From NCBI GenBank assembly GCA_019454045.1, contig SKCR01001886.1, positions 83,201 through 147,200 of the forward strand: 64,000 nt of DNA, read 5' to 3'. The notes beneath the pieces were generated by a model, which did not search any database, had not been told where the DNA came from, and saw nothing but the letters and a program-made list of their open reading frames with translations. Shown piece by piece: positions 4,025 through 56,448 of the stretch. This DNA comes from Zanthoxylum bungeanum. Lineage: Eukaryota; Streptophyta; Magnoliopsida; Sapindales; Rutaceae. A program made the position numbers and the translations under genes. Numbering within the stretch: position 1 is the stretch's first letter; every line of letters begins with the position of its first letter.

Positions 4025-4027
4025 GTC

Positions 4028-10893: not shown

Positions 10894-10898
10894 CTCTG
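10894..10898. repeat. Target-site duplication of young copia (ctctg), left
   Basis: ctctg at 10894-10898 is repeated exactly at 16108-16112. The empty site is seen in LTR1 near 2646-2652 (gcctctgactc). Confidence 0.9.
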
Positions 10899-11229: not shown

Positions 11230-11240
11230 TCCCCCCTCAA
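11230..11240 (-). other. Polypurine tract of the young copia
   Basis: On the minus strand TTGAGGGGGGA directly abuts the 3' LTR. Confidence 0.8.
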
Positions 11241-11242
11241 GC

Positions 11243-13074
11243 TCAAGGGAGTGAAAAGACATTGAGCTTGCTGCGAAGATAATGAAATGAGGAATAGGGA
11301 AGTGCCTTGGTTAAAATATCTGCTGTTTGATCTTCACTAGGAACAAAAGAGACTGTGATGGACTTGTCAGCGACCTTGTCACGAATGAAGTGAACATCTA
11401 ATTCAATGTGTTTAGTCTTCGCATGATAGACTGGGTTGCTAGCAAGAGCAATGGCACCTTGATTATCACACCACAGAGTAGGAGGAGAGATAAGTTGAAG
11501 GTTGAGTTCAGTGAGTAAGGACTTAATCCACAGAACCTCAGCAGTGGCAAGAGCTAGAGCTCTGTATTCAGATTCGGTGCTGGACCTGGAAATGATACCT
11601 TGCTTCTTAGAGGACCAAGAAACCAAATTTGGACCAAGAAAAGCAGCATAACCAGCAACAGACCTTCTATCATCTCTGTCACAAGCCCAATCAGCATCAC
11701 TAAAGCATTGAAGATGCATACTACTGGTGGAGTAAAATTGGAGGCCATAATGAGATGTACCATGTAAGTATCGAAGCAACCTTTTACAAGCTTGCCAATG
11801 AATATCAGTAGGACAAGACAGAAACTGTGATAGCTTGTTAACAGAGAACGCTATCTCTGGGCGAGTTAAAGTGACATATTGAAGAGCGCCAACAATGCTT
11901 CTATAGGAAGTAAGATCAGAAATAGGAGAACCATCTGACTTAGTAAGAGGATGGCCTGCTGCCATAGGTGTGGCACAAGGACTGGAATGAAGCATATCAT
12001 GCTTAGCCAAAATATCTGCTATATACTTGGATTGAGAAAGATGCAAACCATCAACATTTTTGTTCACTTCAATACCTAGGAAGTAATGAAGTTCTCCCAG
12101 ATCTTTAAGAGCAAAAGTATTATGGAGGGCTGTGATGGTATGTTGAATCAATGAAGGATTTGAGCTAGTAACAATAATATCATCAACATAGACCAGAAGC
12201 AGAATTAAGTGACCATGTTCCCATTTGTAGAACAAAGAAGTATCAGACTTTGCATTGAGGAAATGCCACTGATGAGTAAGAACAGTTTTGAGTTTATCAA
12301 ACCAAGCCCTTGGTGCTTGCTTTAGACCATAGAGAGCCTTGTGGAGACGACAGACATGATCAGGCCTTGAAGTATCTACAAATCCTTCTGGTTGCTGCAT
12401 ATAAACTTCTTCAGTGAGAACTCCATTGAGAAATGCATTATTGACATCAACCTGTCGAATAGACCACTTATGCATAACAGCAATGCTTAGAACAATCCGT
12501 ATAGTGGAAGCCTTAACAACTGGGCTGAAGGTTTCTGTGTAGTCATAGCCATAGGTTTGATGAAAACCTTTTGCCACCAAACGAGCTTTGTATCGTGAGA
12601 TGGAGCCATCTGAGTTGCGTTTAATCTTAAACACCCATTTGTTCCCAATAATTTTGACAGGAGAAGAAGGCTTAACCAAAGTCCAGGTATTATTGGATTG
12701 TAGAGCTGAAAATTCATCTTTCATGGCCTGATGCCATTTGGGATCTGACAAGGCTACTGAAACCTTGGTAGGTTCAACAGGAGAAGACAAAAAAGCTGTC
12801 ATATAGGTTTTAGGTTTAAAAATTCCCAGTTTGGATCTAGTTACCATTGGATGGCCTGATGGTGGTTGTAAAGGCAGAGTATGATTAGATATATGGGAAG
12901 GACCAGGTTCTGAATTGGCAGAGACAGGACTAGTAGAGGAAGAAGTGGAATTTTGAGAATTATTGGGATGGGAAGTATCAGAGGCAGAAAGACCATGTGG
13001 ATCATCTGGAACCTGAGGAAGTGAATACTGCTGCTGAGGAATTGCTAGAGGAATTGGTTGAAGAAGGCAGTGTG
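11243..13074 (-). CDS. Copia reverse transcriptase and RNase H
   Basis: This open frame copies the element RNA to DNA and removes the RNA strand. The frame is open from about 13074, first through a Ser/Pro/Gln-rich linker; the first Met of the domain is at 12847 (MVTRSKLGIFKPK). Reverse transcriptase motifs include NTWTLVKPSSPVKIIGNKWV, the first catalytic Asp in IRQVDVNNAFLNG and the active site YVDDIIVTSS. RNase H shows the four acidic positions in CFSDADWACDRDDRRS, SRSSTESEYRALA, LWCDNQGAIALA and HIELDVHFIRD. The frame ends at 11243 next to the polypurine tract. No stop interrupts these two domains. A one-base shift near 13075 cuts it off from integrase. Confidence 0.95.
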
Positions 13075-14040
13075 TGTTTCTAATGAGACATCTGATGAAG
13101 GAGGAGAATTATGATCATCAGAGTGAGTGGTTGAAGAAGACACAGAAGAGAAATCTTTCCCAGGAGCATAAGGAAAGCTGGTTTCATCAAAAATCACATG
13201 ATTAGAAACATAGACCCTTCCGGAGGAGTGGAGACATTTGTATCCCTTATGATGAGAACTGTAACCTATGAAAATACATCTAAAACTTCGGAACTCCAGT
13301 TTATGTTTATGATATGGTCTGAGATAAGGAAAGCAAGAGCACCCAAAAATTCTGAGAAATGAGTAATCAGGTGGAACATTGAATAATTTTTGATAGGGAG
13401 AGATATTATTAAGGACAGTTGTGGGTTGTCTGTTGATAAGGTATACTGCAGAATGAAAAGCATTCCACCAGAAGATCAGAGGAAGATTAGCTTGTGCAAG
13501 AAGTGTCAAGCCAACATCAACTATATGTCTATGCTTCCTTTCTATCCTACCATTTTGGTGATGAATGTGAGGACAAGGATGTCTAAAATGAATTCCATTG
13601 GTAGCAAGATAATCACTGAGGGACCTGAACTCTCCTCCCCAATCAGTTTGTAAAGTTTTGATTTTAAGACTGAGATGATTTTCAATGAAAGTCTTAAACT
13701 GAACAAAAATAGGAAAAGCATCTGACTTGGATGTAAGTGGAAATATCCAAGTAAACCTGCTAAAATCATCAAGAATAGACAGATAATACTTGTACCCTTG
13801 AGTGGAACATACATGAGAAGGACCCCAAAGATCAGCATAAAGTAATTCTAAGGGTTGAATACTTTTTGTCTCAACAGAATCAAAATGAAGTAAATGACTT
13901 TTGCCTATTTGACATGCATTGCAAAAGTTCAAATGTGACAGTTTATTTATATCACAAGGAATGTTACAAAGTTTGAGTACATTCCTGAGTGTGTGAATAG
14001 GTGGATGACCAAGTCTCTTGTGGAGAACTGAGAGGTCAGT
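13075..14040 (-). pseudogene. Copia integrase, frameshifted at both ends
   Basis: The zinc-binding part is seen from LHKRLGHPPIHTLRNV to NFCNACQIGKSH (HHCC pattern). The catalytic triad is intact: Asp in LYADLWGP, Asp in LQTDWGGEFRSL and Glu in NGRIERKHRHIVD. The conserved tail IFGCSCFPYLRPY and IFIGYSSHHKGYKC follows. The upstream join to protease is lost near 14045-14060 by a frameshift (stop after CDALV). The downstream join to reverse transcriptase is lost near 13075. Confidence 0.9.
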
Positions 14041-14056
14041 ACCTTTGTTACCTTTT

Positions 14057-15310
14057 TCATACTAAAGCATCACATTGAATATTAGGCAAACAGGAAACTA
14101 AGAAATTTGTTTTGACTGAAGAATACACTGAATCATCAGAGTGAGACAGCTGAGAAAACATAGAGATAGGAGTAGATGGTTGAGATGAGTTATAGGAGCA
14201 GATGAGATTGTTTTGAGATGGAATTTGAACTTTGTAGAGACCTTCCTTAGCAATTCCTTTAAGCAGAGTGGTCCCCGTATTCCTGGCCTTTACAAGACAA
14301 CATTTGTCATGAAACTCAATAAAAACATTATTATCAGCCAATAATTTTGAAATACTAAGCAGATTTTTGGTTATGGATGGGACAAAGAGAACATGTTTCA
14401 ACAATAAGGAGTTAGGTAGGTGTGTAGGTAGTGAAACAGATCCAATTTGGTCAATTTTCAGTCCTAAACCATTACCTATATGCAGCTTATCAGGTCCATT
14501 GTAGAGCAAAGCATCAGAAAGTATACCTGAATCATTAGTAACATGATTTGTAGCTCCACTGTCAATATACCAGGCTGGATCTTCAATCATTTCTGGAGCT
14601 GAGGCAAGTTGAGCAGTCTTAGGGCTCTGAACGGCATACTCATTTGGCATGACTGGACCAGTATATACCATATTGCCTTGATATCCACTGCCTTGATAAC
14701 CATAGCCTCTGCTAGGTCCTCCTGAAAAACCTCTCCCAAAACCTGTGTAGTTGTAGTTTTGAGGAGAAGTATTTCCAGGATTTCCATGTGGTCTATATCC
14801 TCCATTATTATAGCCTCCGTTATTTCCTCTAAATTGTTTAGGTACAAAGCCCTGATTAAACCTATTCCTGCACTTATAAGCTCCATGACCAGGAATGAAA
14901 CAAATCTGGCACACAAGACTACCATCAACAATGTTCTTTCCTTTGTCAAAACTTCCTCCATGGCTATATCCTCCACTATATCCAGGCCTATTTCCATTAT
15001 ATCCACCTCCACCTCCTTTGTTGTAAGCATTATTCTTACCAAAATTCTGATTCCTTTGAGCAACATTGGCAGACAGATGATGTTGAACTTCATTACTGAG
15101 TTTACCTACAACTTGCTCAATCCTACATTCATGACTAACTAGTAGCGCATACAATTCTTCTAAGTTCATGGTCTCAGCTCTTGCTAGCACATTAGTTACT
15201 AAAGACTCATATTTTGTATCTGAATTCAGGCCAGTAAGTATACACAAAATCAGATCATCATTTGATATAGGTTTTCCAGCAACAGCTAAACTATCGGCTA
15301 AATTCTTCAT
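14057..15310 (-). CDS. Copia gag C-terminal half and protease
   Basis: This 417-codon open frame starts MKNLADSLAVAGKP. It carries the gag capsid helices, a Gly/Asn/Tyr-rich linker, one CCHC zinc knuckle (CQICFIPGHGAYKC, spacing CX2CX4HX4C) that binds the RNA genome, and the aspartic protease active site in WYIDSGATNHVT. It ends with the gag-pre-integrase region. Its true N-terminus is in another frame upstream, so on its own this is a partial gene. The Gly-rich linker is unusually long for the family. Confidence 0.9.
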   Translation of the reverse strand: MKNLADSLAVAGKPISNDDLILCILTGLNSDTKYESLVTNVLARAETMNLEELYALLVSHECRIEQVVGKLSNEVQHHLSANVAQRNQNFGKNNAYNKGGGGGYNGNRPGYSGGYSHGGSFDKGKNIVDGSLVCQICFIPGHGAYKCRNRFNQGFVPKQFRGNNGGYNNGGYRPHGNPGNTSPQNYNYTGFGRGFSGGPSRGYGYQGSGYQGNMVYTGPVMPNEYAVQSPKTAQLASAPEMIEDPAWYIDSGATNHVTNDSGILSDALLYNGPDKLHIGNGLGLKIDQIGSVSLPTHLPNSLLLKHVLFVPSITKNLLSISKLLADNNVFIEFHDKCCLVKARNTGTTLLKGIAKEGLYKVQIPSQNNLICSYNSSQPSTPISMFSQLSHSDDSVYSSVKTNFLVSCLPNIQCDALV

Positions 15311-15314
15311 CTTT

Positions 15315-15760
15315 GTAAAGTAGTCACTGATACTTAACGAACTTTCTTAACAGTTTGCAATTGCATCTTAATAGGCATTACTCTAGCTTGAGATTGAGAG
15401 ATAAACATGTTATTCAAACTTTGCCACAAATCAAAAGAGGTTGAACAATGAATTACCGAAGACAAGATATTCTCATGCATGGAGGATAGCAACCAACTGA
15501 GAAGAAGCTGATCAGTTTTGATCCAATTATCAAAGCTTGGATTCTCAGATCTATTCAGTGTGTCTCCAGATCCAGTGCTAGATCCTTCTTCAGCCAAAAC
15601 AGAGAATCGTTCTGGACACTTTTTCTCCATTAATGAAGCCTTCCAAGCCATTGCCTCTAATTGAGGTAAGGACTTGCGTTCGCCAAACAATAAAATTGTT
15701 GCGACCAAGCTTGACAGGTGTTACAAAGCTGAAACTTGTGTTAATGTTCATATTTGTCAT
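15315..15760 (-). pseudogene. Copia gag N-terminus in two frames
   Basis: The likely start is the ATG at 15760-15758 (MTNMNINTSFSFV), just inside the primer site. The first frame reads KLGRNNFIVWRTQVLTSIRG to FINGEK, then an A-run near 15625-15640 shifts the frame to KKCPERFSVLAEEGSSTG and FDLWQSLNNMFISQSQAR. A second shift near 15330 separates this from the ORF at 15310. Confidence 0.85.
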
Positions 15761-15777
15761 GAATGGCTCTGATACCA
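15761..15777 (-). other. Primer-binding site of the young copia (initiator tRNA-Met type)
   Basis: On the minus strand TGGTATCAGAGCCATTC follows the LTR end without a gap. TGGTATCAGAGC is the standard complement to plant initiator tRNA-Met. Confidence 0.9.
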
Positions 15778-16107
15778 TGAAAGAAACTCTGTAGTTTCTG
15801 TTTGGGAAGAGAGAAAGTGAAAGAGAGTTGTTGGAAGCTAGAGAAGAATACTGAGCAAGCTTTATTATTTTGTGTTTGTTAAAAGATACAAAATTACATC
15901 ATACAAAGTTTATAACCGAATCTACTATTTATACTAAAAATCTGCCTGCTATAACTAACACACTTTTAACCTTAACAAACTACTAACAAGAATAACAAAC
16001 TTGCTGAGTCATTGATCCATGTGAACCATTTTCTGTCCAATCACAAAACAGAGATTTTGTCCACGTCAGCAGCATACTGAGATGCTGCTCTGCTTAATAC
16101 TCTAACA
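15778..16107 (-). repeat. 5' LTR of the young copia
   Basis: 330 bp, almost identical to the 3' LTR. A TATA box on the minus strand (TATAAATAG, 15933-15925) marks the promoter of the element. Confidence 0.95.
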
Positions 16108-17479
16108 CTCTGACTCTAAAAAACGACAAACTCAGTTCGCACAAAGGACCTTCATTTCAGCCTCAACTCACGCACAAATGGCTTCAAACTTCACGGATCA
16201 ACCATCAAATAACCCAAATACCCTTCTCAGCAGCAGACCATCAGCTCAGCCCTCCAACCATACGTCCCATACACATAAATCCCTCACAAAACCAGCCCTC
16301 TTCATCCCCTAAAGCCACGCAAATCATAACCCTAAAACAGCCCCCATGCATGCGTGATAGCGCACCCAATAAACCCTAACCTCTCATGCATAAACGGATG
16401 CACAGCAATGATAAACCCTTAGCTATTTCACACGCAAATAACAGCCCCTCTGACCGCCAAGATACCCTGAAACAGTGGCCAAATAACCACCCAAAAATCA
16501 ACCCAGAAACTGCCCTGGAACCGTGAGAAAAATCATCCTGAAACCATGAGTGAAAATCACATGTGAAAATAGCAAAAACAGCGGAAACAGCGGACCGGTA
16601 AAAACAGCAAAAACAGCGGAAATAATGGACCAGTCAAAACAGTAGAAACATCGAACCGGTGAAAACAGTCGAAACGACATCCCTTCCGGCACCGTGGAAC
16701 GCACTCCCGGAAAGCGACTTAAAAGGTAAGACCTGAGGGCACCCTTTTATTTATTATCCTTTATTTTTTAGTTATTTTATTACTTTATTTCGCATGAGTA
16801 TTGTGAATTGGTGCATGATGTGATTTCCGGGTGAACGGAACATGTGTCTCTCTTGTGGTATATCGGATGGAAACCCGGACGTAAATTCCGTAGCCGAATC
16901 CGAATGGACGGTATTGCGGTTTGCACTCGGGATACAATGTCACGTATCACTTGAGAGACACACGTATTTCGTTTCATCCAAAGTTTGTATTTGAGCATGT
17001 TATAGTCTTTAGGTTATTCGTTTATTATTTAAAGCATGGTTTAATTTAGTTTGTTATTTATTTGTTAAAGCATATTTAGGTTGTTTCTTATGCATGTTAT
17101 TAGTTTATGATGTGTTTGGATAATGATTTATACATGTTGATTTAATGGTTCAATATGCTCATTGTGTTACATTGCGTGAAGTTATTTGGATGAAAGCATG
17201 TTAGATCTAAGTACCCTTGAGCATGATTATTGAGTAGACTTGGTTAAATTATTGCACAAATCCGTTCATTACAAGTGGCATAAGTAAGGGACCATTCCGA
17301 ACCCAACGGTTTGAGGTCTTCCCTTGCGAGGGGTGAGTGCGGCCTTAAATCTTTTTTTCCCGGTTCACACCGGGTGGCGACTCCATTTTATTTCTCCGGT
17401 TTCGTCCCTCGCGGGCTATTCCGTACTCCCGACCGGGCCGCGAGCCCGGAACAGCGTCGTCCATTTTCTGTGTCCTACA

Positions 17480-19442
17480 GTCTGGCGACTCCACTGGGGA
17501 TAGAGAATCGGCCCCGAAATAATGTCTTGTAATGTTTGTGATTTGTGTTTTAATTAATCATGTCTACCGTGGGTTTAAGGAGTTTAATCAAAGGCATTAT
17601 TAAGGCTAGGTGATAGTTTGGTGTCTTCCTTCACTCACTACCTTTCTATAAGGAAAAGCTGTGAAGACACCTAGATAATCATTCACCCGTAGCTTATTGT
17701 GATAGACTAATTTGGAGGACTCGTTGTTTATTCCTGTCACCAAGCAAGCGATAAGAGCCTAAGGGCTTGGGTACTTAAGATAGCCTCGCTCCACCCTCCC
17801 TCTGGGGAATCTACAATGGGAAATCCATTTGACAGTTAGTCACATACCATAACTCGTTGGCACGTACCGTAAGGTATAAAAAAGGTGCTTTCACTTGGTC
17901 GTTTGAACCCTTGAGTGGGGAGTCCTAGTTGTGGGCAATCCTTCGTCAGCGAGAGCCTTTGTTTACATTCTTTTAAACCTACATGTGAACCTTAATTGTA
18001 TGACCCTTATAAATTATTTATGCTTGTGTTTAAGACCATCATCATTTGGATTCAATTGAACCTTTTGTCAAGAGATATGAACTTGTTGGGCCATTTAAAC
18101 TGGAGCGAGTTCGTGTCCTTTGACAATTGGGTCAAAAGTTTCTAAAATGTCAATGGGCCATTTTGTATTTGGGCCTCTTATCATTTGAAGTTGTTTAGCC
18201 ATGTATCGCAAAAGTGTAAATTTGTTGGGCCTTTTCAACTGGGACAAGTTTGCACCGCGCAATAATGTGATTGAATACTTTAAAAATGATGATAGGCCAA
18301 CTTATATATGTATTTTCCGCATCACACGCATCTCAAGCATTTCATGCATACACGCATCATGTTAACCCTTTTGTGTCTTAAAAGCCATCATAGATTCATG
18401 TTGGGTTAGGAAAGCAGAGAGACTCGTCAAGAGACCGTCAGTCAACATGAGCAAATTAGCAAGCGAGAGATCCCGCCTGGATCAATTAGAGATTAAAGTA
18501 ACTAAAATTATTGAGATGTTGCAAGTCCTAACTAATGTTGTGGCCAGTCTGACCGTACACGGTATAGCCGATAACAGAAAGTTTTACAATCAGAATAGAA
18601 AGACCATCGGGGAATCCTCGGAAGAAGTAAGCAGAAAAGACAGTATAGTCATTCAGCAATGGGAAACAGGGCAGCGAGACTATCAGATCTAAAAGAGAAT
18701 GAGTTCACCGAGCCGATCAATGTTGACAGACTGAAGCTGTATTTAGTCTGAGGGAGAGAAGACTGAGCAGTCACCAAGAGAATTGGCGGAAGACTTAACC
18801 CAATGGGATATGAAATTCATCCATGCATTCATGCATACACGTAACGTACTTGCAATTCTTGTGTTTGTTCTATGTTTGCAGGTTTCAAACAGAAGAGAAG
18901 AACCGACATGAGGAACACATGACGCCGAGGAGCACAATGATGGCCTCACCCATCAAGAACAGAGAGTATCTCTACACATGTATGTGTATACGTTACATGC
19001 ACACGTCTTTATTCTATTGTTTTGTGTTTGCAGGTTTCAAAGAAGAAAAAAAAAAGAGAAAAAGAAAGCAGCAAAGATCAAAATGTGGCAGAAGCACTGA
19101 GGATGACATTGAAGACACATTGACAGATGGATTTCGATCATGTCTAGCTGAAGATGATGAATTCAGTGCTAACAGAGAGGCAACCCAAACACTTTGTTAC
19201 GATTTCTATTTTCATGTTTTGTGTATACATGTCGTAGAATTTTTATTTTGTGTGTTATTTTGGTAGGTAAAAGCGAAGACATGGCATTTTAAGACAGAGG
19301 GGATGATGCTTGGCAATCACGAAGATGAGAGCTAATTCATTAGTGGTGGCAGAGTAAAAGAAGAATTCATGAGACGCATCCTAATGAACTTATGCCAAGC
19401 AAGAGGCGTATTGAGTACACAATTCCTTTGCTTTAATTATTG
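17480..19442 (+). repeat. Partial second internal region of LARD
   Basis: A near-identical copy of 4025-5984, starting with the primer site (17483-17500) and stopping just before the LOG upstream region. At 19443 it jumps into LTR sequence equivalent to 3385, sharing only one base (C) with both sources at the joint. The second LOG copy and minisatellites have been lost. Confidence 0.9.
18447..18692 (+). CDS. Second copy of the short possible gag-remnant ORF
   Basis: 81 codons, identical to 4988-5233 except that one Glu in KVTEIIEM is Lys. It is a passive duplicate within the LARD dimer. As with the first copy, I cannot name a function. Confidence 0.3.
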   Translation: MSKLASERSRLDQLEIKVTKIIEMLQVLTNVVASLTVHGIADNRKFYNQNRKTIGESSEEVSRKDSIVIQQWETGQRDYQI

Positions 19443-20082
19443 CATGTGTTCTCTCTTGTGGTATATCGGATGGAAACCCGGACGTAAATTCCGTAGTCGA
19501 ATCCGAATGGACGGTATTGCGGTTTGCACTCGGGATACAATGCCACGTATCACTTGAGAGACACACGTATTTCGTTTCATCCAAAGTTTGTATTTGAGCA
19601 TGTTATAGTCTTTAGGTTATTCGTTTATTATTTAAAGCATGGTTTAATTTAGTTTGTTATTTATTTGTTAAAGCATATTTAGGTTGTTTCTTATGCATGT
19701 TATTAGTTTATGATGTGTTTGGATAATGATTTATACATGTTGATTTAATGGTTCAATATGCTCATTGTGTTACATTGCGTGAAGTTATTTGGATGAAAGC
19801 ATGTTAGATCTAAGTACCCTTGAGCATGATTATTGAGTAGACTTGGTTAAATTATTGCACAAATCCGTTCATTACAAGTGGCATAAGTAAGGGACCATTC
19901 CGAACCCAACGGTTTGAGGTCTTCCCTTGCGAGGGGTGAGTGCGGCCTTAAATCTTTTTTTCCCGGTTCACACCGGGTGGCGACTCCATTTTATTTCTCC
20001 GGTTTTGTCCCTCGCGGGCTATTCCGTACTCCCGACCGGGCCGCGAGCCCGGAACAACGTCGTCCATTTTCTGTGTCCTACA
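19443..20082 (+). repeat. LARD LTR3, 5'-truncated (640 bp)
   Basis: It matches 3385-4024 of LTR1 base for base in length. It ends GTCCTACA at the outer target duplication gatgt (20083-20087). Confidence 0.9.
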
Positions 20083-24912: not shown

Positions 24913-26625
24913 TGACCGACGTAAACACACACGTATAACGAAAGCGCACGTATCGTTCAAGTAGTATAAAAATATCGATCCCACGAGGACTTAATTCATA
25001 TTGTTGTTATTAATTGTTGAATCTATTTATTTACATATATCTAATTATAGGGAGAAGAGAATGATTGCTTGATTGATTTGGTTGATTGTAGATTTGCTAA
25101 ATAAATAAAAAGACAAAAGAAAATAATAAGGAAAATAACAAAAGACACAAAGATCTAGGGTTGTGAATCTTTCTAATATCTTTTAAAAGATGAAGTGATT
25201 ATTTTATGTTTGTGTAATAAATCGATTTACTAACCTGGAACACGAAATTATGCAAAAGCCTATGTCGATGGTCAGACGCAAATACCCAGTTTAACCCAAT
25301 TGAACCATATGTCTATGTCAACCAAATTATCTGGATTCATTAAGTTTAAGTTCCAATTATGGCTGCCCCGCCCGACATGTATATGTCTATCCTGTAAGGA
25401 AATCTATTAAAGGGTTATCTATCCTCAAGGAAGATTGTGGGCTATTAAGTCTAAGGCTGAAACCTAAAATCCATATGTCTAGTTCATTTTAGATTTACCA
25501 CATCAATCTTATTGGTGATCAGACAACAAGAAGCATTAAGCTTAAGACTTAATAAGTAAACCTTTAAATTACCCAAACTATAAAATAACCCATTATAAAC
25601 CGGTGATATTAGAATTCATCACAACCCCAGATAACTAACACATAACTAGGGCTAGTAAAAACTATAAAAAGTAAGAAAGTAAATTACTATTATTACAAAA
25701 CGTAATTAAAATTATTTACAAAACTAAAAACTAAAAACTAAAAGAAACTAGAGAGAGAAACTCCCTCTTTATATCAAGAAGTGAGAGAGAATGGTACAAC
25801 TGAAACTGAAATCTCGAGCTCAATTTATAGGCCTCGGTGGGGTTCCAGTGTCGCGACGCCAAGGCCTTTGGCGTCGCTACGCCAGCTTCTGTCGACGTGG
25901 CACGCTCTGGTTTGTCGGCTGCAGATTCTGGATAAGGTGATAATGTGACACATGGCAAGGTGGTTGGGGCTCAATTATTGTGACACGTGGCGACTTCTGA
26001 TTGGTCGGCTCAGATTCTTATCCACCACGTGTCAGATAGGGAAAAGAGAGCCAATAATTAATGCTGACGTGGCACTGACGTGGCGACACGTGGCAAAGTG
26101 ACTGTCGGCACCATAGAATTACGACATGTGGCACTTCGTGATTGGCTGATGGTGACGTGGCGGTGAGGTGGCACATTGACTCGGTCAACTAATGATGTGG
26201 ATGATGACGTGGAGTGACACGTGACGACATATGGCGATTGCGACTGTCGGCACTGTAAGATGATGACAAGTGGCACGGCGCATGTTAGCAGATCGGCTGT
26301 GATGGTGACACGTGGCACGACGTATGTTAGCAAAGTCAAACTTTTCTCAGATTCTGACACGTGGACCCGGCGCACGTTAGCACTGTTCGGCGCACGTTAG
26401 GCGTCGCGACGCTGAAGGTCTTGGCATCGCGATGCGGCAAATTACCAAAATGCCTTTTTCGTCCAATTTTCACTGTTTTGGCCCAAATCACCTCCAGAGT
26501 GTCCTGAACTTTATTTATCTACAAAATAACACAAAACAAACATCAAAATATTCACAAAACTCAAGAAACTATACAAAATATTAAGTTAAATGAGTGGGAA
26601 ATAGTGATATAATTACCACTCATCA
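24913..26625 (-). repeat. Athila-2 3' LTR (LTR A, 1713 bp)
   Basis: Plus-strand ends are TGACCGACGTAAAC and TTACCACTCATCA. Compared with LTR C it lacks a 466-bp block; the joint is the repeated decamer AGTAAAAACT. TATA on the minus strand at 25830-25821 (CTATAAATTG). A perfect 10-bp stem (GCGACGCCAA/TTGGCGTCGC, 25853-25877) lies just upstream of it. Confidence 0.9.
25890..26365 (-). promoter_or_regulatory. G-box/ABRE-rich upstream region of the Athila LTR
   Basis: About ten ACGTG cores occur in 475 bp, many as CACGTGGC or GACGTGGC, forms bound by bZIP and bHLH factors and known as abscisic-acid response elements. They lie upstream of the TATA box in LTR orientation. The same array is in LTR C (35230-35735) and LTR D (38080-38460). 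Confidence 0.5.
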
Positions 26626-26638
26626 CACCCCCAAACCT
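26626..26638 (-). other. Polypurine tract of Athila-2
   Basis: On the minus strand GGTTTGGGGGTG directly precedes the TG of LTR A. Confidence 0.8.
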
Positions 26639-27939
26639 AACATTTTGCTAGTTCTCGAGCAAAACATAAAATAACATAATAAAATTAACTAAGAAGCCAC
26701 TTTCGTAGGGATCACGGTTGCATTTAGCGTATGCAACAAGCCTTTAAACCCCTATGTGTCCCTAGTGGACGAGTTGTAGTCTCGTGAGGGTTTACAACAA
26801 TGATACCCCAAACATTTTATAAAAGTAAAAATGTAGTGAAACTAATGCACACAAAAGCAAAAAGACAAGAGAAAAGAGAATAAAGAAGTTAGTGACTAAT
26901 CAGGTGAAATTTCTACTCCAAGTTAAGTTGTTTTGTTTCTTTCTAAATTATTGAATAAGTAATTCTCCGATTATATTTTCCATTCTCCATATACACAGCC
27001 CACAAAATATTAAACAACTCATTTTTGCCCACAGCAGTCACAAGTGCAATTGATAAGAGAGTAATATTTTTGTCCTAAAGTTCTATCAGATTTCACACCT
27101 TTTTGTAGCAATGGAATAATTTTTCTGATTTTTCTGATTTGTTCTATGATTTTTTTTTATATATATACAATATCTTCCGTCTATGTAGTGAGTGTTGGGT
27201 CGGTGGCTCCCAAACCAGTTGGCTTTAGGCACCAGGTGTTAAGACACCCCTATGGACTTAATTACTCAGACTTTAGATATATATATTTTGGAACATCCTC
27301 GATCCATGTAGCAAGCTTTGGGCCAGTGACTCCCAAACCAGTTGGCTGTAGGGCACTGGGTGTTAAGACACCCTTACAGACTTAATAACTTGGATCTCGG
27401 ATGTTTTTTTTTTCTTTTTTTTCTCCATCACTTTCTGAGATGCTTCCTCCATTTAAAATAGAGTACTGAATATTACAAACTTTTCAATTATAGCTCATGT
27501 CTGTATGTTTCCATGTATGTTGATAATACCTGTCAACTGAGCATATGAAGATCCATTTTAGTCCGTTTTATGGAGAATTTACAAATTAAATAATTTAAAA
27601 TGAAATAAATAAAAATTAACTTGTTTCGAAATAGGTTTGAGATACGTCTCAGGAGTGGAAACTCCTTACTCAGCTATCTTTTACCAATTTCACCTTTTTT
27701 TTAGTCAAAATAAAAACATAAAAACGCAAAGTATTTTTGTAATTTTTGAAAAATTTTCAAATTTTTTGTATTTTTCGAAAAATTTTGAACTAAAAATAAA
27801 AACAACACACAACTAAAAAAGATACTAATCAACTAATTCCCCCCCCCAAACCTAAATGAGACATTATCCCCAATGTCTTAAACAGTAGAAGAAGAGTTTA
27901 GAAGATAGTACCTGGTTGGCTGAAATTCTACACGAAAAG
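26639..27939 (-). other. Athila-2 3' non-coding region
   Basis: No ORF or domain is recognisable. It has AT-rich stretches and one direct repeat (separate entry). A C-run at 27839-27847 precedes CCAAACC. Confidence 0.5.
27172..27385. repeat. Direct repeat of about 120 bp, two copies
   Basis: Copies at about 27172-27265 and 27295-27385 share CTCCCAAACCAGTTGGCT and GGTGTTAAGACACCC with nearby matches. GGTGTtaaGACACC itself forms a small inverted repeat. Confidence 0.75.
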
Positions 27940-28593
27940 TTAAAGGTTAAGATCCAGATTAACACGATGCCTCTTACCACGATCGTCCTCGGACCAATTT
28001 ATCTTTGAAAGGATAGGGTCAACTTGTGGTTCTTAGGCTAAGATTTGGTCAATTAAATCTGGAGCAGTTCTGGCAGTAAATAGGAGTTCTTTCATAGGTT
28101 TTGACACGAACCCATTTCTTCGAGCATCATCAAGAAACACACAAAGAAAATCATAAAATCCTTCAACGTTGTACAGTCCAAGCTGTTTCTGGTGTATGTT
28201 CAGGTTCGTCCAAGATAACACTGTAAAAATTTCCTCCAATGTACCCAAGCTACCTAGCAAAGCAATAAAAGCATCAGCACGGTTAATCATTTATACCAGT
28301 CGTTCAGACATACCTGGCGCAATCAGTTCCTCTTCGTTTGATGATCCAATAATATTTGCCTCTGCCAAGGGTTTTGGGATGATTCCTAAAACGTTACTAC
28401 CTCATTCCTATACGGCCTTTGAAATGATCCCCATTAGTCCAAGATTGCCTCCACCATATACTAAGTGCATATTTCTTGCAGCTAAGACTCGACCCAATTC
28501 TTGTGATGCTTCTACGTATTGTGGTTTAGTACCAACACTACTACCGCAAAACACACAGATGTTTTCAACTCGTCTTCTTGAAGTGGCTTCCAT
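27940..28593 (-). pseudogene. LOG-like gene in Athila-2, broken
   Basis: Reading from the ATG at 28593 gives MEATSRRRVENICVFCGSSV, YGGGNLGLMGIISKAV, stops near 28405, then LGIIPKPLAEANIIGSS, a stop near 28290, MINRADAFIALLGSLGTLEE and LSWTNLNIHQKQLGLYNVEG, to DLIDQILA, another stop, and the end VNLDLNL. It matches 6312-6964 over its full length and is also intronless. The active-site signature is damaged (LGSLGTLEE in place of PGGxGTxxE), so even without the stops it should be inactive. The C-terminal RGKRHRVNLDLNL keeps the EAR-like end seen in the other copy. Its position after integrase and an accessory ORF shows it is carried as an extra gene of the retrotransposon. Confidence 0.85.
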
Positions 28594-28632
28594 ATTTTAC
28601 TCTGGATGTCTTCAAAAGTGCAATGATGAGTT

Positions 28633-28641
28633 GAATTTATA
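28633..28641 (-). promoter_or_regulatory. TATA box upstream of the Athila-2 LOG-like gene
   Basis: TATAAATTC on the minus strand, 48 bases before the ATG. It is the same nonamer as at 6246-6254, and related sequence extends upstream as far as a shared gacaggatcca near 28736-28746. Confidence 0.5.
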
Positions 28642-28843
28642 ACACCTGAAAAGGGTGAGTAAAATAATAGCACTAGTACCTTTCAAATGACAATTATTAG
28701 TTTAACAGTAAAATAAATCGTGATAGTCAAAAATGTCTGGATCCTGTCAGAGAAAATAAAAGAAACAACAAAACAAATCACAATTATCAGGAAAAGACAA
28801 AGATATATAATATGTACAAGAAAAGTAGCGGCTTGATTGACGT

Positions 28844-29375
28844 CTATGCGTCAGGGACAAGCTTCCCATCCAATTTTCTTATAAATTGGCAAACAAAGTC
28901 TTTTTTAGTTAGATTCCCGAGACTTAACAGTTGTCTTTCCTTTTGGAATTGTGCGTATAACACACGAATCTCATGATACACACATCCACTGGGATGCGTC
29001 TCAAGAGTTATAGATATGTCATCCAAAGACTCCTTACTCAAGCCATCCCTAATGAAGTTAATCTTATTTTCGCGGTTATCAGACACCATTCCTAAAGAAC
29101 GACAACGAGTATTACAAAACATGCGAGCACATTTATAACAAACACACATTCTTTTGGCTCTTCTCTTTTTAGCATAAGTGCTCCTTCCTAAACCAGGCAT
29201 ATGTGAAATAAAAGAGTCAGAAGACTCACCTGCCAATCAGACCCATGCTTCAATAATCCAACGAATGTCAATAGGAATACCTTTGATCATCAGTAGTCTC
29301 ATCCGTTCCAAACGAGCTTTGTAAACTTTAATCAAGGAAATTGCTTGTGTGAAGATTTGCGAGAGCTTCTTCCAT
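28844..29375 (-). pseudogene. Cysteine-rich basic ORF resembling carlavirus-type nucleic-acid-binding proteins
   Basis: From the ATG at 29375 the frame reads MEEALANLHT, shifts near 29345 to LIKVYKARLERMRLLMIKG and IPIDIRWIIEAWV, meets TGA at 29239-29237, then stays open for 130 codons to 28844. That part holds GLGRSTYAKKRRAKRM followed by CVCYKCARMFCNTRC (Cys spacing CXCX2CX4CX3C) and INFIRDGLSKESL. A helix, then a GRS-Y-A-basic run, then a Cys cluster, is the layout of the small nucleic-acid-binding proteins of carlaviruses, which act in the nucleus and in silencing or gene control. That relation is my inference from the motif order and needs a profile search. A splice-acceptor-like tttttgcag is at 29400-29392. 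The outer Athila has the same start at 31-1. Confidence 0.55.
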
Positions 29376-29514
29376 CGTGAAAGGACTTAATCTGCAAAAA
29401 CTAAACACACACAAATTAAATCACACCAAATCACAATATATATAAAAATTGCATGGGTTGCCTCCCTGCTAGCGCTAAGTTTAAAGTCGTCAGCTAGACG
29501 TGACTTCTCGAATG

Positions 29515-29960
29515 TTAGGCTGGATCTGAAAGTATGACACTTTCTTTTTGTCGCTCAAATGATTCTCCCCAGTAGTGCTGGACACGCTTGTTTTTAACCT
29601 TGAAAGTTTTGTTGGAGTCAGGATCATGTATCTCAACGGCTCTGTCTGGTAAAACCTTGGTGATCACAAATGGACCTGACCACCGTGATTTTGGCTTCCA
29701 TGGGAAAAATTTCACCCTTGATTTGTTTAACAGTACCTTCTGCCCTGGTTCGAGTTGTATGCGCACTAACTTCTCATCATGTCTTTTCCTTGCCTTTTCT
29801 TTGTACAATTTGGCATCCTTAAAAGGCTGTATGTGAAATTCCTCCAATTCGTTGAGCTGGTGGAAATTTTCTCTTTTGTTGCTTGTAGTGCAAGAATAGG
29901 CTTCTTCAGTACGCAGTGCGCTTTATCTTCAGGCTCCATAGGTAATTGACATGTTTTAAG
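29515..29960 (-). pseudogene. Athila-2 integrase C-terminus joined to protease spacer
   Basis: From about 29960 the sequence reads CQLPMEPEDKAHCVLKK, corresponding to the integrase segment [17 protein letters not shown] of the outer copy. A frameshift follows, then KLYKEKARKRHDEKLVRIQL, EPGQKVLLNKSRVKFFPWK and [15 protein letters not shown] to 29515. The preceding residues (FPDDEKKEECFRLDV) belong to the spacer after protease, so everything from reverse transcriptase to the integrase core has been deleted at this joint. Confidence 0.85.
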
Positions 29961-30045
29961 TTTGTCAGTAGAACTTTGTCTTTCATCAGAGTTCTGATCG
30001 GTACTATGTATCACATCAAGTCTGAAACATTCCTCCTTTTTTTCA

Positions 30046-30369
30046 TCATCTGGGAAATTCATGGCTTTGAAAAACATTGAATGTTACTTCTTGGTCCTGT
30101 ACCCTCATGGTTAGTTCTCCTTTTTGTACATCAATAATGGTTCGACCTGTAGCCAAGAATAGTCTCCCGAGGATGATTGGTACGTCTGTGTTTTCCTCCA
30201 TATCAAGGACAATAAAATCTGCTAGGAAAATGAATTTGTCAACCTTGACCAGCACATCTTCAACTACACCTCTCGGAAATACGAGCGTTCTATCAGCAAG
30301 TTGTAGAGAGACTGAAGTTGGCATTGTTTCTCCAATCTGTAATTTCCTGAAAATAGAAAAAGGCATCAA
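30046..30369 (-). pseudogene. Athila-2 protease domain
   Basis: The frame reads MPTSVSLQLADRTLVFPRG, VVEDVLVKVDKFIFLADF, VLDMEENTDVPIILGRLFLA and TGRTIIDVQKGELTMRV. This is the retropepsin-like region of Athila in which ILGRPFLATG-type sequence marks the C-terminal half of the fold. The active-site DTG-type triad expected upstream is not visible in this frame. Confidence 0.8.
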
Positions 30370-30417
30370 GTTAACACTCGCACCTAGATCACACAGAGCC
30401 TTACCGAAGTCATGCTC

Positions 30418-31438
30418 TCATATGGTGCAAGAAACAGTGAAACTGCCAGGATCTTTCAACTTTGGAGGAAGTTTTCTCTGAATGATGGCGCTGCATTCTT
30501 CTGATAATGCTACTGTCTCATAATCTCCCAATCTCCGCTTTCGTGAAAGAATGTCTTTCATAAATTTGGCATAGCTGGGCATTTGTTCCAACGCTTCTGC
30601 AAATGGAATGTTGATATGCAGCTTTTTGAACACCTCCAAGAATCGAGCAAATTGCTTGTCCAGCTTATTCTTCTGAAGATTCTGAGGAAAAGGGAGGTGG
30701 AGTGATCTGTTCTTTTTCCTTTGCTTCTTTTTCCTCCATCTGTTGCTTTGTTTCTTTTGGAACTTCCTCAGCAGTTGTTTTGGCTCCAACATCTTTGTTG
30801 ATTTCAGTACCGCTTTTTTAACATGATGTTATGACACTGCTCCTTCCCCATGTTCCTCGGATTTGTTCAGTGTTGCTAGGAAGGTTACCTGGCGGTCTGT
30901 AACTCTGAGCATTGGCCAGTTGTCCAATTTGATTCTCCAGTGTTTTAATAGAAGCTGATTGACTTTGAATTAATGCTGCTTGGGATTGAAACATAGCATC
31001 ATATCTTGCTGCTTGAGAGTCGTGTTTTGCTTCTATCTTTTTCAAGTGGATCAACACTTCTGTTATTCCTGATTCATTTGCCTGCTCCTGGCCTTTGTTC
31101 TGTTGTTGTAATCCGGGTGGTGGATTGTTCATTTGCCCTGAATTGTTGCTCCATACGAAATTGTGATGATTCCTCCACCCTGGGTTGTAGGTGTTGGAAT
31201 ATGGATTGTTCCCCTGTCTGTTGAAATTGTTGACATAATTCACCGTTTCTTTATGTTGGTTGAAAGATTCTGACTCAGGTGCTTCTCCAAATGGTGAACT
31301 TGTGGATCTACCATTAACTTTCATGTTAAGAGTTTCCAGATTTTTGCAAATCATATCCAGCTTGGAATTCAGTGCTGTGTTGGCTCCAACTTCATAAATT
31401 CCTACAATTTTTGGATCATGCTCCTTTCTGTTGGCCAC
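30418..31438 (-). pseudogene. Athila-2 gag C-terminal region
   Basis: Two frames: 31438-30818 reads IVGIYEVGANTALNSKLDM, an Asn/Gln/Pro-rich stretch (NNFNRQGNNPYSNTYNPGW) and AARYDAMFQSQAALIQSQSA, then TLENQIGQLANAQSYRPPGN. After a shift 30792-30418 reads KQFARFLEVFKKLHINIPF and EALEQMPSYAKFMKDILS. There is no clear CCHC knuckle. Confidence 0.85.
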
Positions 31439-31499
31439 AAGGAGTTGTTGTTGGCCATTTCTTCAATTAAGTCACACAGGCTTGATCTTCTCCTTTTGC

Positions 31500-32204
31500 C
31501 ATTAAAGCTCCTCCAGCAGCAGCAGCATCAATTGTGGTTCTCATTATTCCAAAAAGTCCATTGTAGAAGGTTTGGACTTGTAGCCACTTTGCGATCTCAT
31601 GATGAGGACATTTCCGGAGTAAATCTTTGAATCTTTCCCAAGCTTCGCAAAGGGATTCTGAATCTTATTGCACGAAGGATGTGATGTCATTCCTCAACTT
31701 TGCAGTTCTGGCTGGTGGAAAGTACTTTGTAAGGAATTTGGTGGCTAGAGTGTTCCAAGTTGTGATGGAACCTGCTGGTAACGAATGCAGCCAAGCTTTA
31801 GCTCTGTCTTTCAGGGAATATGGAAAAACCCACAGTCTCATTGCTTCTTCAGCTGCTCGGTTGTAATTGAAAGTACCGTAAACTTCCAGGAAGTTGCTGA
31901 TGTGGGAATTAGGATCTTCAGTTGCATTTCCCCCAAACTGTACTGACTGCTGAATCATCTGGATGCATGTTTTGATGTCACCCGCATTTGCTGGTAAGGG
32001 AGGAAGTACAATACAGGAAATGAAGCCGTCGACCACCGGAATGGTTCTATCTCGAATGGGAATCGGTGGTGCAACGTTCAAAGGTTCAGATTCCATGTTG
32101 ACTAAAGCTTCTTGGCCTTCTTGCCTTTCCCTTCTCAACTGTCTGATAGTTCTTTCAATTTCTGGGTCAAGCGGTCGGAGTTCAAAGCTTCTGGTTCGTC
32201 TCAT
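31500..32204 (-). pseudogene. Athila-2 gag N-terminal region
   Basis: Start MRRTRSFELRPLDPEIERT at 32204, then IPVVDGFISCIVLPPLPANA, GNATEDPNSHISNFLEVYG, RLWVFPYSLKDRAKAWLHSL and LTKYFPPARTAKLRNDITSF, the typical Athila capsid region. A TAA replaces the codon after FVQ near 31665, and frameshifts follow. The same N-terminus recurs, truncated, at 33484-33670 and in the outer Athila at 36510. Confidence 0.9.
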
Positions 32205-32311
32205 GTAGTTTCTGAGAACCTGAAAAATAAGAAAACAAAAACAGTAAGTAAAAAGAAATTAAATACAAATAACGTATCTAACCCCTAAACTAATAGTAAA
32301 AGATAAATAAG

Positions 32312-32329
32312 TCCCCGGCAACGGCACCA
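32312..32329 (-). other. Primer-binding site of Athila-2 (tRNA-Asp type)
   Basis: On the minus strand TGGTGCCGTTGCCGGGGA, six bases from the LTR end. It differs by one base from the TGGCGCC... form common in Athila. Confidence 0.8.
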
Positions 32330-32335
32330 AAAACT

Positions 32336-33480
32336 TGACCGGCGTAAACACACACGTATAACGCAAGCGCACGTATCGTTCAAGTAGTATAAAAATATCG
32401 ATCCCACGAGGACTTAATTCCTATTGTTGTTATTAATTGTTGAATCTATTTATTTCATATATCTAATTATAGGGAGAAGAGAATGATTGCTTGATTGATT
32501 TGGTTGATTGTAGATTTGCTAAATAAATAAAAAGACAAAAGAAAATAATAAGGAAAATAACAAAAGACACAAAGATCTAGGGTTGTGAATCTTTCTAATA
32601 TCTTTTAAAAGATGAAGTGATTATTTTTATTTTGTGTAATAAATCGATTTACTAACCTGGAACACGAAATTATGCAAAAGCCTATGTCGATGGTCAGACG
32701 CAAATACCCAGTTTAACCCAATTGAACCATATGTCTATGTCAACCAAATTATCTGGATTCATTAAGTTTAAGTTACAATTATGGCTGCCCCCGCCCGACA
32801 TGTATATGTCTATCCTGTAAGGAAATCTATTAAAGGGTTATCTATCCTCAAGGAAGATTGTGGGCTATTAAGTCTAAGGCTGAAACCTAAAATCCTATGT
32901 CTAGTTCATTTTAGATTTACCACATCAATCTTATTGGTGATCAGACAACAAGAAGCATTAAGCTTAAGACTTAATAAGTAAACCTTTAAATTACCCAAAC
33001 TATAAAATAACCCATTATAAATCGGTGATATTAGAATTCATCACAACCCCAGATAACTAACACATAACTAGGGCTAGTAAAAACTATAAAAAGTAAGAAA
33101 GTAAATTACTATTATTACAAAACGTAATTAAAATTATTTACAAAACTAAAAACTAAAAACTAAAAGAAACTAGAGAGAGAAACTCCCTCTTTATATCAAA
33201 GAAGTGAGAGAGAATGGTACAACTGAAACTGAAATCTCGAGCTCAATTTATAGGCCTCGGTGGGGTTCCAGTGTCGCGACGCCAAGGCCTTTGGCGTCGC
33301 TACGCCAGCTTCTGTCGACGTGGCACGCTCTGGTTTGTCGGCTGCAGATTCTAGATAAGGTGATAATGTGACACATGGCAAGGTGGTTGGGGCTCAATTA
33401 TTGTGACACGTGGCGACTTCTGATTGGTCGGCTCAGATTCTTATCCACCACGTGTCAGATAGGGAAAAGAGAGCCAATAA
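32336..33480 (-). repeat. Athila-2 truncated LTR (LTR B)
   Basis: It matches the first 1.14 kb (plus-strand order) of LTR A, also lacking the 466-bp block, and stops within AGCCAATAAT. There it joins gag-leader sequence with a two-base overlap. Confidence 0.85.
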
Positions 33481-33794
33481 TAATGCCGTCGACCACCGGA
33501 ATGGTTCTATCTCGAATGGGAATCGGTGGTGCAACGTTCAAAGGTTCAGGTTCCATGTTGACTAAAGCTTCTTGGCCTTCTTGCCTTTCCCTTCTCAACT
33601 GTCTGATAGTTCTTTAAATTTCTGGGTCAAGCGGTCGGAGTTCAAAGCTTCTGGTTCGTCTCATGTAGTTTCTGAGAACCTGAAAAATAAGAAAACAAAA
33701 ACAGTAAGTAAAAAGAAATTAAATACAAATAACGTATCTACCCCTAAACTAATAGTAAAAGATAAATAAGTCCCCGGCAACGGCACCAAAAACT
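33481..33794 (-). repeat. Duplicated gag start, leader and primer site
   Basis: It repeats about 32024-32335: gag codons around PIPIRDRTIPVV, the 5' leader and a second primer site at about 33771-33788. With LTR B it forms a partial tandem duplication of the 5' end. Confidence 0.85.
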
Positions 33795-35994
33795 TGACCG
33801 GCGTAAACACACACGTATAACGCAAGCGCACGTATCGTTCAAGTAGTATAAAAATATCGATCCCACGAGGACTTAATTCCTATTGTTGTTATTAATTGTT
33901 GAATCTATTTATTTACATATATCTAATTATAGGGAGAATAGAATGATTTCTTGATTGATTTGGTTGATTGTAGATTTGCTAAATAAATAAATAAATAAAA
34001 AGACAAAAGAAAATACTAAGGAAAATAATAAAAGACACAAAGATCTAGGGTTGTGAATCTTTCTAATATCTTTTAAAAGATGAAGTGATTATTTTATGTT
34101 TGTGTAATAAATCGGTTTACTAACCTGGAACACGAAATTATGCAAAAGCGTATGTCGATGGTCAGACGTAAATACCCAGTTTAACCCAATTGAACCATAT
34201 GTCTATGTCAACCAAATTATCTGGATTCATTAAGTTTAAGTTCCAATTATGGCTACCCCCGCCCGACAGGTATATGTTTATCCTGTAAGGAAATCTATTA
34301 AAGGGTTATCTATCTTCAAGGAAGATCGTGGGCTATTAAGTCTAAGGCTGAAACCTAAAATCCCTATGTCTAGTTCATTTTAGATTTACCACATCAATCT
34401 TATTGGTGATCAGACAACAAGAAGCATTAAGCTTAAGACTTAATAAGTAAACCTTTAAATTACCCAAACTATAAAATAACCCATTATAAACCGGTGATAT
34501 TAGAATTCATCACAACCCCAGATAACTAACACATAACTAGGGCTAGTAAAAACTTAAAAGTAAAAGACATAAAGTAAAAATGCTGAAAAGTAAAATACAT
34601 AAAGTAAAATAAAATGCTAAGGTAAAAGGATCAACTTTTACTATTTACTATTTAGATATCTCCCTTAATATAATATATTAACTTGTGATTATTTTACCAA
34701 CCAGCCATATAGGCGGTAACCTGATTAAGTCAAATTAAGTCCAACCAGCCATAAAGGCGGAACCAAAATAAACCTGCCATAAAGGCGGTAAGAAAATGTA
34801 ATTACCAACTGACCAATCTGGCGGTATCCTTGATTAGTCAGGTTTAAACCAGATTAAGATGAATTATCAACCGACCAATATGGCGGTATCCTCATTAAGT
34901 CAATATTTTAAATAGTGAATATATTATTTTTAAGGGAGATTAATCTAAATAGTAATAGTAAAAGAATTTCCTTTCACCCTAGTTGGGGAAGTTACCTCCT
35001 CATGGTGAATAGTAAAAACTGTAAAAAGTAAGAAAGTAAATTACTATTATTACAAAACGTAATTAAAATTATTTACAAAACTAAAAACTAAGAACTAAAA
35101 GAAACTAGAGAGAGAAACTCCCTCTTTACATCAAAGAATTGAGAGAGAATGGTACAACTGAAACTGAAATCTCGAGCTCAATTTATAGGCATCGGTGGGG
35201 TTCCAGCGTCGCGACGCCAAGGCATTTGGCGTCGTTACGCCAGCTTCTGTCGACGTGGCAAGCTCTGGTTCGTCGGCTGCAGATTCTGGATAAGGTGATA
35301 AGGTGACACGTGGCAAGGTGGTTGAGGCTCAATTATTGTGACACGTGGCGGCTTCTGATTGGTCGGCTCAGATTCTTATCCGCCACATGTCAGATAGGGA
35401 TAAGAGAGCCAATAATTGATGTTGACGTGGCACTGATGTGGCGCTGATGTGGCGACACGTGGCAAAGTGACTGTCGGCACCATAGAATTGCGACACGTGG
35501 CACTTCGTGATTGGCTGATGATGATGTGGCGGTGAGGTGGCACGTTGACTCGGTCAACTGATGATGTGGATGATGACATGACAATGACGTGGAGTGACAC
35601 GTGACGATGGCGACTGTCGGCACCGTAGGATGATGACACGTGGCACGGCGCATGTTAGCAGATCGGCTGTGATGATGACACGTGGCATGGCGCATGTTAG
35701 CAAAGTCAAACTTTTCTCAGTTTCTGACACGTGGACCCGGCGCACGTTAGCACTGTTTGGCGCACGTTAGGCGTCGCGACGCTGAAGGTTTTGGCGGCGC
35801 GACATGGCAAATTACCAAAATGCCCTTTTCGTCCAATTTTCACTGTTTTGGCCCAAATCACCTCCAGAGTGTCCTGAAACTTTATTTATCTACAAAATAA
35901 CACAAAACACATCAAAATATTCACAAAACTCAAGAAACTATACAAAATATAAAGTTGAATGTGTGGGAAATAGTGATATAATTACCACACATCA
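33795..35994 (-). repeat. Athila-2 5' LTR (LTR C, 2200 bp)
   Basis: Plus-strand ends are TGACCGGCG and ACCACACATCA, next to cattt. It keeps a block (34555-35020) missing from LTRs A and B. TATA on the minus strand at 35188-35179. About eleven ACGTG cores lie in 35230-35735. Confidence 0.9.
34700..34900. repeat. Degenerate CCANCCATATAGGCGGTA repeats in the Athila LTR
   Basis: About five imperfect copies of an ACCNRCCATATAGGCGGTA-like word, each followed by sequence ending in AAGTCAA, fill this part of the block. The equivalent block in LTR D is at about 37535-37735. Confidence 0.7.
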
Positions 35995-56447: not shown

Positions 56448-56448
56448 T

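Follow-up and report, generated by a model that had tools for sequence, protein, structure and literature searches.

Athila-like LTR retrotransposons with LONELY GUY (LOG)-like extra open reading frames (ORFs) were reportedly described by Steinbauerova et al. in 2011, and the LOG-like ORF of such elements has a 3' position. A screen of 121 angiosperm genomes looked for extra domains in RT-detected LTR elements; that study lists Gypsy consensus sequences of Citrus and Populus that carry a LOG-type YgdH domain, crediting Steinbauerova et al. 2011, attributes extra genes to several lineages of plant retrotransposons, most of them without known conserved domains, and, in the section that names the LOG-type domain, gives no viral nucleic-acid-binding domain (PMC9289625). 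Other extra ORFs of plant elements are named in two further reports (PMC7264820 and PMC11963269). The genes analysed here likewise lie beyond gag-pol, but belong to protein families that differ from those of the env-like and other extra ORFs of plant LTR elements and from the m6A demethylase of orchid elements (PMC9289625). The anti-silencing proteins of Vandal elements also come from an accessory gene, one thought to counteract silencing, but Vandal is a DNA transposon (PMC11728184).

The locus lies in a 64,000-nucleotide stretch of the Zanthoxylum bungeanum genome (contig C1886:83201-147200), which we refer to as the window. As in the reported Athila-like elements, a LOG-like ORF is found in a Gypsy-type plant element; unlike in those elements, a gene for a viral-type cysteine-rich protein (CRP) precedes LOG, the LOG protein has a basic tail ending in LxLxL, and LOG has a conserved TATA box. 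Two further differences are the purifying selection described below and the occurrence of LOG by itself in an element that has no recognised gag-pol. Our preferred reading, to which we give a probability of roughly 55%, is that CRP and LOG form a conserved accessory module of two genes in an Athila-type retrotransposon, with roles in silencing and co-repression. The preliminary description of this DNA had proposed a new kind of retroelement cargo. LOG as cargo of Athila-like elements was already reported, so this part of the proposal does not stand; searches of the open-access literature turned up no plant retrotransposon with a CRP/NABP gene, no LOG bearing an EAR tail and no LOG-only element.

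The host genome searched comprises 3.956 Gb in 51,709 contigs, and the window consists of plant LTR retrotransposons nested in one another. The element bearing both extra genes, Athila-2, is identified as an LTR retrotransposon by an LTR pair and the target-site duplication AAATG, and sits within the gag of an outer Athila; the lineage name Athila for both elements is that of the preliminary description. DNA self-comparison of the window aligned the Athila-2 LTRs in two parts, 25653-26627 with 35010-35996 (92.4%) and 24912-25729 with 33794-34627 (93.6%), and the Athila-2 stretch 29348-29957, in which the integrase end lies, matches 4-614 of the outer Athila. The features of the two elements are as follows.

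24913..35994, minus strand: Athila-2, LTR retrotransposon bearing both extra genes, from AAATG on both outer sides and LTR matches
about 33795-35994, minus strand: Athila-2 5' LTR, from the LTR match
33772..33788, minus strand: primer-binding site, one mismatch to TGGCGCCGTTGCCGGGG, 0.05 expected by chance
32313-32329, minus strand: second copy of the primer-binding site, in an internal duplication
31665..32258, minus strand: gag, Pfam Retrotrans_gag at 8.2e-12
30046..30417, minus strand: protease-like frame, RVP_2 at E 0.0018 (below cut-off) and otherwise by place alone
29515..29922, minus strand: integrase C-terminus, from its position and a 79% DNA match with the outer Athila
29392..29400, minus strand: TTTTTGCAG, resembling a splice acceptor, ahead of the CRP start codon; a motif kept across loci
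28844..29375, minus strand: CRP, a basic Cys-rich protein with a broken N-terminal part, from Pfam and relatives
28636..28641, minus strand: TATAAA upstream of LOG, 48 nt before the start codon
27940..28593, minus strand: LOG-derived gene with tail GKRHRVNLDLNL, collinear over 217 codons, four in-frame stops
26626..26640, minus strand: polypurine-like tract before the 3' LTR, read from the sequence
about 24913-26625, minus strand: Athila-2 3' LTR, from the LTR match
2..31, minus strand: first ten CRP codons of the outer Athila, truncated where the window begins, from tblastn

The TGGCGCCGTTGCCGGGG-type pattern is presumably the tRNA-Asp primer-binding site of Athila, and we take 29515..29922, in which the Pfam scan gave no match, to be the integrase C-terminus from its position. 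Elsewhere in the window, three related repeats of ~1.4-1.9 kb (22172-23563, 47700-49373 and 56448-58341) occur in both orientations and are 76-95% alike.

The two extra sense ORFs that had been placed between the integrase and the 3' LTR are present, CRP at 29375-28844 and LOG at 28593-27940, and LOG has its own TATA box, as was also stated. Both copies are indeed broken. The CRP start codon at 29375 is followed by a small deletion with a frame change and by one in-frame stop, beyond which a frame of 130 codons (28847-29236, minus strand) is open through to the stop; LOG, which runs from 28593 to 27943 plus its stop and is 80% identical to a relative, P0122, over 217 codons, contains the four in-frame stops. 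A CRP in the outer Athila at the start of the window had likewise been claimed, and this is correct, if on a small basis: just ten codons (31-2, minus strand; 9/10 identical, E 0.70 by themselves) lie inside the window, at the position expected for CRP.

The CRP open frame matched two viral Pfam models, Viral_NABP (28.4 bits against a cut-off of 23, 2e-6) and Carla_C4 (27.4 bits against 20.9, 3.3e-6), over a short region, residues 10-68. Among 373 candidates, a protein search identified 363 relatives at E <= 0.01. Identity to CRP is 60-89% across the 120 listed, of which 52/120 have exactly 182 aa and 66/120 have 180-186 aa; where an organism is named, it is Populus, Xanthoceras, Acer, Parasponia or Rhamnella. 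When 22 of these 120 were aligned with the window sequence, Carla_C4 matched 23/23 rows and Viral_NABP 22/23; across 68 aligned rows, a basic run followed by C-x2-C-x4-C-x3-C and a block close to the C-terminus are both (nearly) invariant. The AlphaFold model of CRP is poor (pLDDT 64), and its Foldseek matches among viral structures are not significant, the best having an E value of 0.067; flexivirus CRP-type proteins, many of them named RNA silencing suppressor, nevertheless make up 22 of the first 26 of these hits. IMG/VR viral contigs scanned with the CRP alignment gave 79 pattern matches and 0 relatives.

Judged by these profile matches, the basic zinc-finger region of CRP has an ancestor in common with flexivirus nucleic-acid-binding proteins. 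The CRPs of carla-, viti-, allexi- and mandariviruses have the basic stretch and four close cysteines in common with it and belong to the same Pfam families; unlike them, the element CRP is encoded by an LTR retrotransposon, is often 182 aa long and has well-kept parts that flank the cysteine cluster. The short matched region and the non-significant structure match could also be accommodated if CRP were the element's own nucleocapsid-like or env-position protein and had converged with viral proteins on a basic patch and a zinc knuckle, but two viral models scoring above their curated cut-offs on nearly all rows tested, together with the predominance of flexivirus proteins among the viral structure hits, make this unlikely. 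Since integrase and LOG accompany CRP at a constant position, insertion of an endogenous flexivirus into the element was also considered less likely. Viral CRPs are described as suppressors of silencing and as pathogenicity factors, and the p12 protein of chrysanthemum virus B in addition as a transcription factor that causes hyperplasia (PMC12172455). By analogy with these viral relatives, the element CRP may modulate silencing or transcription.

A CRP search of the host genome gave 150 scored matches from 41,292 first-look candidates, of which 144/150 show no stop in the matched codons (hand count). Matches were ranked by similarity and the best 30 loci were cut; one is the window (L001) and another, L015, is near-identical to L014, leaving 28 distinct further loci. 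Integrase lies upstream of CRP in all 30 loci, window included, and thus in 28/28 distinct further loci, and LOG lies downstream on the same strand in 26/30 (25/28 distinct further loci), being absent from L002, L013, L014 and L015. CRP and LOG are 242-271 nt apart in 22/23 loci and 190 nt apart in the remaining one. TTTGCAG precedes the CRP start in 24/26 loci with a readable start, and TATAAA precedes LOG in 22/25 Athila-type loci, window included. Many of the Athila-type copies (L001-L030) also have a pyrimidine run ending in CAG, a possible splice acceptor, before the LOG TATA box; given this CAG, LOG could possibly be expressed from spliced RNA in these copies.

The CRP gene is full length without indels in 21/30 loci, 12 of which are stop-free (11 of 12 with ATG), and LOG in 12/30, window included, with seven stop-free (six of seven with ATG); both genes are full length and open in two loci, L026 and L029. 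The preliminary proposal would have been refuted had no other Athila copy carried both ORFs, or had all copies been equally broken without signs of purifying selection; neither is the case, with both ORFs at the same place in 25/28 distinct loci, both open in two of the 30, and the coding parts showing purifying selection (below). The cassette is also more than a chance occurrence, with 363 CRP relatives, LOG matches and the same gene order in further genome copies. Several pairs, among them L014/L015, L063/L066, L065/L067, L070/L071 and L084/L085, are near-identical copies on different contigs; the assembly has probably retained alternative haplotypes at these places, which inflates copy counts. 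For other species, contigs of 3,000-50,000 bases carrying CRP (23) or LOG (47) were compared by size, and two exact coincidences were found (8,723 and 4,511); a jittered null gave two or more in 0.45%, which is suggestive only of CRP and LOG sharing a contig there.

Among the Athila copies, pooled pN/pS is 0.42 for LOG (12 copies, LOG not having been used for picking) and 0.24 for CRP (21 copies picked by CRP protein similarity, which biases the value downwards). CRP copies have a mean pairwise identity of 95.9%, LOG copies one of 93.2% and the integrase ends one of 92.4%, compared with non-coding values of 91.5% before CRP, 89.8% in the CRP-LOG gap and 88.0% behind LOG; picking loci by CRP similarity raises CRP identity as well as lowering its pN/pS. 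LOG is under purifying selection. CRP is likely to be so too, and is the weaker case because its loci were picked by CRP similarity.

A second LOG copy, absent from the preliminary description, is present on the opposite strand of the window in a different element, element B, whose features are as follows.

1258..20082, plus strand: element B, an LTR element with LOG, with TGTAGG...CCTACA ends and repeated parts 98.6 and 98.9% alike
1258-4024, plus strand: first LTR, with TGTAGG...CCTACA ends
4028..4045, plus strand: primer-binding-site-like stretch TGGCGACTCCACTGGGGA directly after the LTR end, unlike the Athila-2 site
6246..6251, plus strand: TATAAA upstream of LOG, read from the sequence
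6312..6964, plus strand: LOG with tail KKRKLNLDLNL, two in-frame stops and a frameshift
9500..9513, plus strand: polypurine-like tract before the second LTR, read from the sequence
9514-17479, plus strand: second LTR with a copia element inside, from the repeat match
19443-20082, plus strand: partial third LTR, from the repeat match

Element B is flanked by GATGG before its first end and GATGT after its last. With three LTR ends and a second partial internal stretch, it forms a tandem array resembling the product of LTR-LTR recombination. Tandem repeats precede its second LTR (7800-9400); a further tandem-repeat region lies at 43879-45235, and one of the two has spacings near 116 and 130 nt. 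The insertion within the second LTR (10899-16107), which we take to be copia-type, has LTRs that are 99.7% identical and open frames of 621, 429 and 338 codons, and is probably young. The window copy of element B has no pyrimidine-CAG run before its LOG TATA box. Besides LOG, 12 internal frames and one LTR frame were scanned with Pfam and none scored above cut-off; the scan covered frames of 90 codons or more, including part of those that overlap in the tandem repeats. A screen designed around RT would miss such an element.

The two window LOG copies, compared over 166 codons, have a pS of 0.38, a pN of 0.09 and a dN/dS of 0.18, and their DNA likeness (78%) extends from ~190 bases upstream to just past the stop. 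A LOG search of the host genome scored 150 copies from 70,053 candidates, 108/150 of them stop-free (hand count). All 30 loci cut from this search have element-B flanks, and none showed CRP or the integrase end within 1.5 kb. A bias-free sample of element B was picked by the flank 5000-5900 alone, giving 40 scored candidates, two of them in the window. LOG is present in 36/38 copies outside the window (30/32 after six near-identical copies were dropped), and TATAAA stands upstream of LOG in 58/58 readable element-B copies on distinct contigs (62/62 before four repeats were dropped).

Twenty-four of the flank-picked copies have a collinear LOG, 12 of them open with ATG. Their pooled pN/pS is 0.59, a value that includes L084 and L085, which have frame breaks, and L088, whose LOG is of another lineage; without these three it is 0.415 (0.357-0.481; 21 copies), and 0.36 with L088. 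The 17 distinct LOGs, 9/17 open with ATG, gave 0.419 (0.346-0.49), so that dropping near-identical copies (L062, L066, L067, L071, L074, L085 and L015 across the distinct sets) left the values essentially unmoved. With growing divergence, pN/pS falls from 1.10 in the two youngest pairs through 0.50 and 0.40 to 0.36 in older ones, as expected for selection in active lineages combined with decay of dead copies. The whole flank is matched by 30/38 copies, 22 of them at <= 92%. Three of these 22 (L077, L088 and L090) have element-B flanks 87-90% alike and a LOG merely ~70-72% alike; that of L088 is open over 217 codons and ends in LDIDLNR. From these sequences, LOG modules seem to have been swapped between elements. 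In all 19 remaining diverged copies (16/16 distinct), LOG is closer than the flank to the window copy, and in the distinct ones mean likeness to the window is 96.1% for LOG and 90.1% for the flank.

These data bear on whether CRP and LOG are mere passengers, caught host or viral sequences amplified with the element and unselected. The broken window copies, the finding of both genes full length and open in just 2/30 CRP loci, and the few youngest LOG pairs with pN/pS near 1 would be expected of passengers, but the coding parts are conserved above their flanks, pN/pS is below 1 and drops with divergence, and CRP relatives at 60-89% identity still include 66/120 listed proteins of 180-186 aa. We therefore consider the passenger explanation very improbable, and for LOG, unselected broken cargo was rejected on the pN/pS and flank comparison of element-B copies. 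The prediction that dN/dS would lie below 1 agrees with all three pN/pS values, 0.24 for CRP (from a biased sample) and 0.42 and 0.419 for LOG.

LOG matches 7,850 scored proteins at E <= 1e-10, cellular proteins included, and its relatives include Populus proteins annotated LOGL10. The structure model of P0122 (pLDDT 88.7, both ends of low confidence) superposes on Arabidopsis At2g37210 (2a33_B) with an rmsd of 1.0 over 178 columns and thus has the LOG fold. Among 178 LOG relatives of 195-230 aa, 136 have LxLxL as their exact C-terminus. Twelve cellular LOGs were set apart by hand, from name and ending type, leaving 166 element-type proteins, among which the tail-bearing Populus LOGL10-annotated proteins were counted; on this division, LxLxL at the exact C-terminus is found in 136/166 element-type and 0/12 cellular LOGs (chance ~0.002 per protein), and none of the 12 cellular proteins has LxLxL anywhere. 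At least three K/R residues occupy positions -12 to -5 in 149/166 element-type LOGs. LxLxL is one of two EAR repressor motifs, the other being DLNxxP (PMC6479872), and the element-type tail conforms to it.

A tree separates element-type from cellular LOGs with 98% SH-aLRT; it is a quick version, with this fork flagged as open and a sampling dictated by the queries. It was built from the first 200 residues, which leaves out the tail of full-length rows, and is therefore an independent check of the hand-set cellular group: seven of the 12 cellular LOGs group with At2g37210, the other five having been thinned out beforehand. From membership of this clade, element-type LOGs of other species would also reside in elements. 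Early-branching Xanthoceras-type LOGs have no tail, so LOG can be cargo without one. A lysine after the conserved arginine is found in 9/166 element-type LOGs; since eight of these nine are tailless and the ninth, P0171, stands at the base of the tailed clade, the sequences suggest capture, then gain of the tail, then loss of the lysine.

Element-type LOGs share with LONELY GUY (LOG7, At2g37210) the fold, PGGxGTxEE and the conserved arginine; unlike LONELY GUY, they form their own clade in the quick tree, bear the tail, mostly have no lysine after the arginine and are encoded in one uninterrupted frame. PGGxGTxEE is strict in 123/166, its single fixed columns being kept in 151 to 165/166, and the arginine is kept in 155/166. 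These features, the fold and the purifying selection would suit a LOG retained as a true cytokinin-activating enzyme, which would supply more active cytokinin and dividing or meristematic cells, so that the element would reach the germ line more often, with the tail tuning location. Several features speak against this. The Arg-Lys pair common to both solved LOGs aligned is missing from most element-type proteins, 157/166 of which have no lysine and 9/166 Gln in place of the arginine, and the gene was therefore filed as LOG-derived rather than as a working LOG. The NCBIfam LOG equivalog score, from a bacterial and archaeal library and hence weak evidence, is 109.6 against a cut-off of 300, and a plain enzyme does not need the conserved LxLxL end. 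We regard the true-enzyme explanation as doubtful. The preliminary label of a LOG-like hormone-activating enzyme fits the fold; with a tail added and the lysine mostly absent, 'hormone-activating enzyme' is probably too simple a name.

For the preferred two-gene module, the observed anatomy, homology, co-occurrence, selection on LOG and tail suggest the following course. CRP would probably be made from spliced RNA via the acceptor before its start codon, and would bind nucleic acid in the nucleus and blunt silencing of the element. LOG, formerly a LONELY GUY enzyme and putatively transcribed from its own TATA promoter, would have gained the basic and LxLxL (EAR-type) tail, with which it would probably enter the nucleus and recruit TOPLESS-type co-repressors, perhaps keeping some nucleotide-binding or hormone-activating capacity. 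Together the two could make the cell permissive, with silencing lowered and cytokinin or division state altered, to the presumed benefit of the element. Weak points of this mechanism include the shortness of LxLxL and the acceptor and TATA motifs, which are read from sequence only. A more specific version is tentative: that a hormone enzyme became a nuclear co-repressor recruiter, is paired with a relative of silencing suppressors, and passes between element families, being in one of them the sole recognisable selected gene of an element without gag-pol.

Two extra genes with clear relatives, at least one of them under selection, suggest a testable route by which the element could act on its host, combining a silencing modulator of viral type with a hormone enzyme that has been reshaped and carries a co-repressor motif. 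That a selected gene sits in an element with no recognised gag-pol also prompts one to ask how a non-autonomous copy can be exposed to selection, and the resemblance of CRP to proteins of flexiviruses is relevant to the exchange of genes between retroelements and RNA viruses.
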